From: Ferrimonas futtsuensis DSM 18154 | GTDB taxonomy: Bacteria > Pseudomonadota > Gammaproteobacteria > Enterobacterales > Shewanellaceae | Direction: 5' to 3' | Assembly (NCBI RefSeq): GCF_000422645.1 | Contig: NZ_AUGL01000007.1 | Coordinates: 1 to 64,000, forward strand | Length of the DNA: 64,000 bases | Shown here: in pieces, positions 8,938 to 45,890 of the stretch | How the letters are laid out: each line of letters begins with the position of its first letter | Numbering within the stretch: position 1 is the first letter of the stretch | Notes under the pieces: model-generated | Database searches by the model: none | Told to the model about the DNA's origin: nothing | Seen by the model: the letters and a program-made list of their open reading frames with translations, nothing else | Made by a program: the position numbers and the translations under genes

Positions 8938-9207
8938 TTAGCGACGCAGGCCCAGCTTGGCGATCAGCTCAGCGTAGGAGGTGTGGTTCTTACGCTTCAG
9001 GTAGTCCAGCAGCTTACGACGCTGGGAAACCATGCGCAGCAGACCACGACGGCTGTGGTGATCGTGGATGTGCTTCTTGAAGTGACCTTGCAGATGGTTG
9101 ATCTGATGGGTCAACAGAGCTACCTGAACCTCAGGAGAACCGGAATCGTTCTCGCCGCGGCCAAACTCAGCCAGAATCTTTGCTTTCGCTTCAGTGCTTA
9201 GTGACAT
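8938..9207 (-). CDS. rpsO: 30S ribosomal protein S15
   Basis: 89 residues, the usual S15 length. It is a small helical protein that binds the central domain of 16S rRNA early in 30S assembly. Family signatures visible include [11 protein letters not shown], the HHSRRGLL segment and the C-terminal [12 protein letters not shown]. It lies between truB and pnp in the conserved order. In E. coli S15 represses its own mRNA through a pseudoknot at the start; I did not verify an equivalent here. Confidence 0.97.
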
Positions 9208-9295
9208 AATAATCTCCGAATTTACAAATAGGCTGGGCCGATCACTAATTCAGCTCCAGCAGGACGGGGTATTCTAGCGGCTGTGTCCTCTGGAC

Positions 9296-15350: not shown

Positions 15351-15375
15351 TGCGCCTCCCCCTACAAACGAAAAA

Positions 15376-15390
15376 AGGGCCTAAAGCCCT
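15376..15390 (-). terminator. Second terminator-like hairpin in the rimP leader
   Basis: A 5-bp stem AGGGC/GCCCT with a TTTAG loop, followed by six T residues on the minus strand, 20 bp before the rimP start. A short stem with a good U-tract suggests partial termination or attenuation ahead of rimP. Confidence 0.5.
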
Positions 15391-15487
15391 GTTATCAAAG
15401 TGACAATTACGATAAACACAATCAGATGGCCTGTTACTACAGCCCCATGTGATTGCGCTATCGTTACCACCACTGTGGTTCAGATAA

Positions 15488-15729
15488 CAAAAAGCCCCGA
15501 GCAAAACGGGGCTTAAAGTGCGCTGGACCCTGTTTAGGATGACTGGGGTCATCGAACCATTCCAGGGGAACAGCTCACCGCCTCCGTCGCGGCCTTCTCG
15601 GTAGTTCAACATCACCTTACGGTGATTACGGAGATCTGCGGCCTGCCCTCAGCATGGACCTCAACCGCGAGATAACCCTCAACAGTTTAGTCCATCACCG
15701 CCCTTCGGGAGGGGGGGGGCAAACCAGCG
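15488..15729 (-). ncRNA. Candidate structured leader or small RNA upstream of rimP
   Basis: A unit of about 240 nt begins a few bases after the promoter at 15736-15764 and ends at a strong terminator (15492-15514). On the minus strand there are several nested stems. These include TGGAC/GTCCA, CTCCGT/ACGGAG enclosing a hairpin ATCACC-GTAA-GGTGAT with a GNRA tetraloop, CCCTG/CAGGG enclosing GATGAC/GTCATC, and the terminator stem. It occupies the place where relatives carry tRNA-fMet (metY), but no tRNA can be folded. It could be an attenuating leader of the rimP-nusA-infB operon (a rimP leader RNA is known in enterobacteria) or an independent small RNA. I do not recognise the family. Confidence 0.5.
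15492..15514 (-). terminator. Strong terminator ending the rimP-upstream RNA
   Basis: An 8-bp perfect stem AAGCCCCG/CGGGGCTT with a 7-base loop, followed on the minus strand by TTTTTG. It lies 142 bp upstream of the rimP start. Confidence 0.82.
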
Positions 15730-44972: not shown

Positions 44973-45461
44973 ATGGCTAAGAAAAGTTCTAAAAAATCCA
45001 AGCCCACCTCCTCGACCATCGCCCTGAACAAGAAGGCGCGCCACGAGTACCACATCGAGGAGAAGATTGAGGCGGGTCTGTCCCTGATGGGATGGGAAGT
45101 GAAATCCCTTCGCGAAGGCAAAGTAAACCTCACCGAAGGCTTTATTCAGATTAAAGATGGCGAAGCCTACCTTCACGGCGTCACCATTACTCCCCTGAAC
45201 ACCGCCTCCACCCACGTGGTGGCCGATCCCCTGCGCCTGCGTAAGCTGTTGCTTAAGCGCCGGGAGTTGGATCGCCTGATTGGCTTGGTGGAGCGCCAGG
45301 GCTACAGCATGATCCCCACCGCCCTCTATTGGAAGAAGGCCTGGGTGAAGCTGGAGTTCGGGCTGGGTAAGGGTAAGAAACAGCATGACAAGCGTGATGA
45401 TGCCAAACAGCGTGACTGGGACCGCGAAAAAGCCCGGGTCATGAAGGGATCCAAGCGCTGA
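44973..45461 (+). CDS. smpB: SsrA-binding protein SmpB
   Basis: 162 residues, near E. coli SmpB (160). It binds tmRNA and brings it to stalled ribosomes in trans-translation. The OB-fold core contains [53 protein letters not shown] and [24 protein letters not shown]. The basic C-terminal tail follows. No good ribosome site is visible; see the -10 element just upstream. tmRNA follows 66 bp downstream. Confidence 0.97.
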
Positions 45462-45472
45462 TCGCCTAATGC

Positions 45473-45507
45473 TTATCCACACTGGTCTTGGCGTCCTTTG
45501 TGGATAA
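45473..45507. promoter_or_regulatory. Pair of inverted perfect DnaA boxes over the tmRNA promoter
   Basis: TTATCCACA at 45473-45481 and its exact reverse complement TGTGGATAA at 45499-45507 bracket the -35 hexamer of ssrA. The 9-mer is the high-affinity consensus DnaA box. The dyad spacing is 17 bp. Whether DnaA binds here is inference; a stem-loop role at the end of the smpB mRNA is the alternative. Confidence 0.6.
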
Positions 45508-45517
45508 ATGGTATAGT
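45488..45517 (+). promoter_or_regulatory. Sigma-70 promoter of ssrA
   Basis: TTGGCG, an 18-bp spacer, then TATAGT, with the mature tmRNA 5' end 11 bp further on. The arrangement suits a stable-RNA promoter between smpB and ssrA. Confidence 0.7.
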
Positions 45518-45527
45518 AGTCCTACCT

Positions 45528-45890
45528 GGGGTCGATTTTGGATTCGACGGGATTCTCGAAACCCAAGGTGCATGCCGAGGTGCGGTTGGCCTCGTAAAAA
45601 AGCCGCATTTTAATAGTCGCAAACGACGAAACTTACGCAATCGCCGCCTAATAAGCGGTAAGATCGCCTACCTCCAATCCCCCGCCTATTGGGAAAGGAT
45701 CAAGGTAGTCAAGCCATATAGGATCGCGCGGCGTCTTCTCCAGTAGACAAAGCGTTAAACTCAATCTGGATCGCCCAGGTGAAGCCTGCCGCTCGGCGCC
45801 ACTATGGGTTAACTAAAAGAGCCGGCTAAGCATGTAGGACCGAGGATGTAGGTTTTTCGGACGGGGGTTCAACTCCCCCCGACTCCACCA
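45528..45890 (+). ncRNA. ssrA: Transfer-messenger RNA (tmRNA)
   Basis: About 363 nt with encoded CCA. The 5' GGGGTCGATTTTGGATTCGACGGG and the 3' GGGGGTTCAACTCCCCCCGACTCCACCA form the tRNA-like domain, with a 7-bp acceptor stem and T-arm. The resume region TAGTC-GCAAACGAC leads the tag reading frame 45619-45648, encoding ANDETYAIAA followed by TAATAA. Several pseudoknot-like segments follow. It rescues stalled ribosomes with SmpB and tags the nascent chain for ClpXP and FtsH. It ends at a terminator 10 bp after CCA. Confidence 0.98.

Follow-up and report, generated by a model that had tools for sequence, protein, structure and literature searches.

Does the DnaA protein act on the promoter of the transfer-messenger RNA (tmRNA) gene ssrA in Ferrimonas futtsuensis DSM 18154? 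The question is raised by a 64,000-bp stretch of this genome (contig NZ_AUGL01000007.1, positions 1 to 64,000; hereafter the window), in which the 66-bp intergenic stretch between smpB and ssrA holds two perfect 9-mer DnaA boxes that face each other. Box 1, TTATCCACA, is located at 45473-45481 on the + strand, directly 5' of the -35 element, and box 2, the exact reverse complement of box 1 and hence the same word on the - strand, is located at 45499-45507; the boxes are separated by 17 bp and are 26 bp apart from start to start. A -35-like hexamer, TTGGCG (45488-45493, + strand), was identified by a promoter-pattern match within the 17-bp gap and is followed, after an 18-bp spacer, by the -10 hexamer TATAGT (45512-45517, + strand). 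With the TG ahead of it, the latter forms an extended -10 element (TGGTATAGT, 45509-45517, + strand). Box 2 lies wholly within the spacer between the -35 and -10 elements and fills half of it. At 9 of 12 consensus positions this is the best promoter match before ssrA, and the promoter is a prediction from that match; the core of its -35 element reads CTTGG in 10 of 14 genus members and ATTGG in two (G030 and G315). The original prediction, that two perfect inverted boxes 17 bp apart surround the -35 element of ssrA, was thus confirmed in both position and sequence. The answer that we favor, tentatively and short of calling it probable, is that the pair is a site of DnaA binding, acquired within the ssrA core promoter by the common ancestor of a single Ferrimonas clade, and that tmRNA synthesis would be repressed through it.

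The number and distribution of perfect boxes in the genome under study (G000; 4,296,027 bases) were determined by pattern searches, which found 31 perfect boxes, 30 of them with a locus that entered the comparisons, versus seven matches to the reversed word. If 31 boxes were scattered at random, the expected number of pairs separated by 0-30 bp would be about 0.007 irrespective of orientation and about 0.002 for the facing orientation seen at ssrA. Of 5000 shuffled versions of the 66-bp intergenic stretch (single-base shuffling), 7 contained a perfect inverted repeat (arms of at least 9, loop of at most 25). The earlier claim that such a close pair of perfect 9-mers is improbable by chance agrees with these numbers. 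Within the window, the ssrA pair accounts for both of the perfect matches, and 15 matches were found when one mismatch was allowed (mean of 8.2 in shuffles). The ssrA pair is also the sole place with two perfect boxes within 1.5 kb of the fetched boxes in G000 and in two relatives that carry the pair, G308 and G310. A third relative, G309, has one other two-box place within the same distance of its fetched boxes, with the boxes 476 bp apart. The perfect box outnumbers the reversed word by 23 to 5 in G308 and by 25 to 8 in G310. Because five other perfect boxes, including those before dnaA, mutH, and polA, hold the same place in all four species, TTATCCACA is a kept signal in the genus.

Facing pairs were then sought across the order to which Ferrimonas belongs. 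Of 295 genomes, 18 (G000 included) have a perfect inverted pair with a gap of 12-22 bp, and the reversed pattern gave a count of 2. The 17 other pairs, with gaps of 13 or 21-22 bp, are located at two recurrent sites: six between ubiG and nrdA (L111-L116) and 11, all with the 13-bp gap, beside the transporter genes dctQ-dctM (L117-L127). The other neighbor at the dctQ-dctM site is polA in G014 and, in 9 of 10 genomes of genus g8, a gene for a beta-lactamase-fold protein that scores below every NCBIfam cut-off listed; the neighbor in L122 is unmatched. Since all 17 fall at two recurrent sites, a perfect facing pair in the order usually marks a recurrent regulatory site. Both nrdA and polA are bound by DnaA in Escherichia coli (PMC11317965).

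An alignment of 467 columns shows 80% identity between the DnaA protein encoded by G000 and that of E. coli, with three differences in the last 107 residues; judged by this alignment, the DNA-binding end of the G000 protein is of the E. coli type and nearly identical to it. The low odds of a chance pair, the recurrence of such pairs at the nrdA and transporter sites, and the E. coli-like DnaA together make a lineage-specific candidate DnaA site that could block ssrA transcription the leading reading. The position of box 2 within the spacer predicts repression by exclusion of the polymerase. DnaA bound to box 2 and to box 1, against the -35 element, would exclude sigma-70 RNA polymerase, and tmRNA synthesis would be lowered when free DnaA is plentiful and raised once DnaA is titrated or inactivated after initiation. 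In E. coli, DnaA acts as a repressor of mioC and of its own promoters (PMC5835720). Binding, repression, and coupling to the cell cycle at ssrA are inferences; the pair itself is a real feature and a plausible new DnaA target.

Several observations weigh against this proposal. Three features of DnaA-controlled promoters are present at ssrA, namely boxes that match the consensus, a matching DnaA in the genome, and a location on the (predicted) promoter, but two others are not: a tandem partner box 2-3 bp away, and conservation beyond close relatives. In E. coli, tandem double boxes spaced by 2-3 bp are found in 15 of 16 DnaA regions detected by chromatin immunoprecipitation, and 13 of 32 perfect boxes are associated with a bound region (PMC11317965). 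When tandem partners were scored as the best match out of nine at 2-3 bp from each box, the ssrA boxes reached 4 each in G000 and 3 and 4 in G310, and 48% of randomly chosen positions also attain a score of 4. In each of the 17 other pairs in the order, the higher-scoring box reached 5 to 8, and among the conserved Ferrimonas sites the mutH boxes scored 6 in all four species and the polA boxes 5 or 6. We regard the lack of a good tandem partner as the most powerful objection to binding in vivo, though not an absolute one. Two other conserved sites also score 4 in G000: the box upstream of dnaA (L030) has scores of 4, 5, 4, and 5 in G000, G308, G310, and G309, in that order, and L028 has 4, 3, 4, and 2 in the same species. 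In Ferrimonas the E. coli tandem rule is therefore a tendency. In G309, moreover, the excess of perfect boxes over the reversed word is slight (27 to 21), unlike in the three species that carry the pair.

The narrow distribution of the pair weighs on the same side. Inspection of the region before ssrA in 14 genus members, which were those drawn by the searches, revealed a perfect pair in G000, G308, and G310 and none in the other 11, G309 included. In a tree that was built from a 534-bp segment ending in smpB and included two outgroup rows, these three genomes group together with 96/96 support. Conservation in related genomes, which had been suggested as a check, is therefore partial: the pair is kept in three sister species but is absent from the rest of the genus members examined. 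A tmRNA was identified by ARAGORN in 116 of 150 loci from named relatives and family members, corresponding to 95 distinct upstream stretches; the 34 loci in which none was identified, mostly from Pseudoalteromonas and Idiomarina, were set aside. A tmRNA was present in 96 family genomes, for part of which promoters were fetched, and the family loci amounted to 52 distinct upstream stretches. Perfect boxes occur in 3 of the 95 stretches, with every other stretch having matches of at most 7/9 within 100 bp, and the best match at ssrA of E. coli K-12 is 6/9 within 150 bp. Two class-wide patterns, searched in 369 genomes each, yielded no further ssrA with a box among genomes having the required tmRNA start GGGGNYGATT (lineages with a different start escape these patterns); the 12 foreign loci that were returned contain no tmRNA according to ARAGORN or Rfam. 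The suggestion that DnaA could control tmRNA supply thus stands as far as the order pairs at nrdA and the E. coli-type DnaA support it, but is weakened by the restriction to three sister species, the lack of a tandem partner, and conservation that is unremarkable.

That last point requires closer examination, as it bears on a possible though rather unlikely alternative, in which the pair is a chance or neutral palindrome that arose once in the ancestor of the clade, for example by copying of one arm, and persists through the closeness of the species and the constraint on the promoter, with DnaA contact perhaps inconsequential. None of the 18 box positions varies among G000, G308, and G310, compared with 22 of 79 fourfold sites in smpB (Fisher 0.006; 8 of the 14 genus members, in which smpB was not picked up by the motif, were left out of the fourfold set). 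Six of the other 48 intergenic positions vary in the three species, all of them outside the -35 and extended -10 elements, and comparison of the boxes with the 33 intergenic positions outside the boxes and promoter elements, which include these six, gave a Fisher value of 0.06. A 9+17+9 template fits between smpB and ssrA in 32 ways, and the placement on the boxes is the sole one without variable positions. When templates of this shape were placed in intergenic DNA throughout the window, 582 of 2767 (21%) were equally invariant in the three species, as were 328 of 1252 (26%) near gene starts. This control covered the 41,018 of 64,000 window bases that were aligned in both relatives and relied on a rough gene map; its invariant share is raised by the inclusion of the S15 and rimP leaders. 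Conservation that at first appeared strong relative to the fourfold sites therefore lost most of its weight, and the invariance of the boxes in three close species is a weak pointer to selection. The confinement of the repeat to a single clade and the lack of good tandem partners also fit a palindrome of this kind, and if one arm was copied from the other, just one box need have arisen by chance. Counting against it are the small number of close pairs expected at random, the rarity of reversed-pattern pairs in the order relative to the real pattern, and the difference from the fourfold sites.

A less probable alternative, and to us an improbable one, is that, in the smpB mRNA, the repeat folds into a 3'-terminal stem, which would protect the end of the transcript or aid its processing, and that the resemblance of the repeat to DnaA boxes is incidental. 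The predicted fold of positions 45462-45511 has an energy of -14.5 kcal/mol, compared with -9.2 kcal/mol (standard deviation of 2.65) for single-base shuffles; the arms reach 10 bp in G308 and G310, and other genus members have different stable folds in the same place, predicted down to -28.8 kcal/mol. If ssrA transcription starts near the predicted position 45524, the inverted repeat is outside the ssrA transcript. Against a stem, the loop is 17 nucleotides long, no T-run follows the second arm, no terminator-like match was found there on the + strand, and a random stem would seldom spell a DnaA box twice. Covariation offers no means of telling a stem from a pair of boxes, since the arms are invariant. 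It had been proposed that relatives keeping the stem while losing the DnaA consensus would count against DnaA; no such relatives were seen, as the 11 genus members that lack the boxes contain no perfect inverted repeat with arms longer than 5 bp. An intrinsic terminator of smpB was considered separately and was rejected given the long loop, the lack of a U-run, and the lack of a terminator-like match.

Slightly less probable again is a titration site, a site resembling a DnaA-reactivating sequence (DARS), or the operator of another protein, placed in the ssrA promoter without controlling ssrA. We know of no other protein with this half-site, which counts against another operator, and two of 31 perfect boxes would contribute little to titration. 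In the single-contig chromosome of G310, the pair is 94 kb from the conserved box upstream of mutH, a neighborhood that corresponds to that of DARS2 in E. coli (PMC11317965). A DARS proper was rejected, since the DARS core consists of three DnaA boxes (PMC4585315) and only two matches of at least 8/9, with no third box, occur in the 100 bp before ssrA.

The searches also revealed conserved boxes elsewhere in the four Ferrimonas species. The perfect box upstream of mutH (L014, at G000:C5:122525-122533, with L216, L227, and L252) is kept in all four; its tandem partner, TTACRAACA, is separated from it by 3 bp, and an imperfect box in the facing orientation lies 5 bp further on. The site is likely equivalent to DARS2 of E. 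coli. Between elbB and polA, a perfect box (L003, L204, L242, and L247) is likewise kept in four species, and in G000 this site contains an extra facing near-consensus pair, TTTTCCACA gag TTGTCCACA. Near a gene for a MATE-family transporter, a perfect box and, across 5 bp, an imperfect facing box with the sequence TTATCCACT are kept in the four species (L019, L210, L234, and L271); we know of no DnaA target at such a site. Finally, a perfect box facing TTGTCCACA at a distance of 5 bp is kept in the four species between a gene for a NapC/NirT-type cytochrome and a DUF1538 gene (L028, L202, L230, and L268).

The genes that flank the candidate DnaA site are readily identified. The smpB gene (44973-45461, + strand) encodes a protein of 162 amino acids, the nearest named relative of which is from F. 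kyonanensis (94% identity), and ssrA (45528-45890, + strand) was identified by ARAGORN, with the tag ANDETYAIAA, and by Rfam (RF00023, 232.8 bits). Other Rfam matches in the window are the S15 leader (9151-9261, - strand) and a gammaproteobacterial rimP leader (15370-15549, - strand). One genus member, G314, encodes a second, divergent full-length tmRNA (L171, at G314:C10:14430-14791; 207.2 bits, compared with 233.9 bits for its usual ssrA), and this second locus also lacks the pair.

Control of ssrA by DnaA would couple ribosome rescue to the initiation cycle directly at a promoter, and it would demonstrate that a facing pair of perfect boxes can function in the absence of the tandem partner seen in E. 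coli. Should DnaA prove not to bind, the locus would be a natural example of two perfect boxes being insufficient. No paper reporting DnaA boxes at ssrA was found by title or the start of the abstract, in a search whose coverage excludes most subscription journals.

Caulobacter belongs to a different class of bacteria from Ferrimonas. In Caulobacter crescentus, trans-translation is tied to replication initiation and tmRNA is cell-cycle regulated, a link in timing that for Ferrimonas is only proposed, and the parts of that account consulted name no DnaA box at ssrA (PMC3985003). A recently evolved DnaA-tmRNA circuit in Ferrimonas, independent of the Caulobacter link and acting by direct repression of ssrA through facing boxes with no tandem partner, seems doubtful to us, though conceivable. 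DARS1 and DARS2 of E. coli resemble the ssrA site in the clustering of several DnaA boxes within a short segment of intergenic DNA, but have a three-box core, whereas the ssrA site has two boxes that sit on a core promoter. The pairs before nrdA and beside dctQ-dctM or polA consist, as at ssrA, of two perfect facing boxes, but differ in their gaps (13 or 21-22 bp rather than 17 bp) and in that at least one box of each has a tandem partner matching at 5-8 of 9 positions. The promoters that DnaA controls in E. coli (dnaA, mioC, nrdA, uvrB, rpoH, and others) serve other target genes, and 15 of 16 bound regions in that species have tandem boxes 2-3 bp apart rather than boxes facing each other across 17 bp, but these promoters share with the ssrA promoter boxes of the same 9-mer consensus, located at or in the promoter, and a DnaA with a near-identical DNA-binding end.
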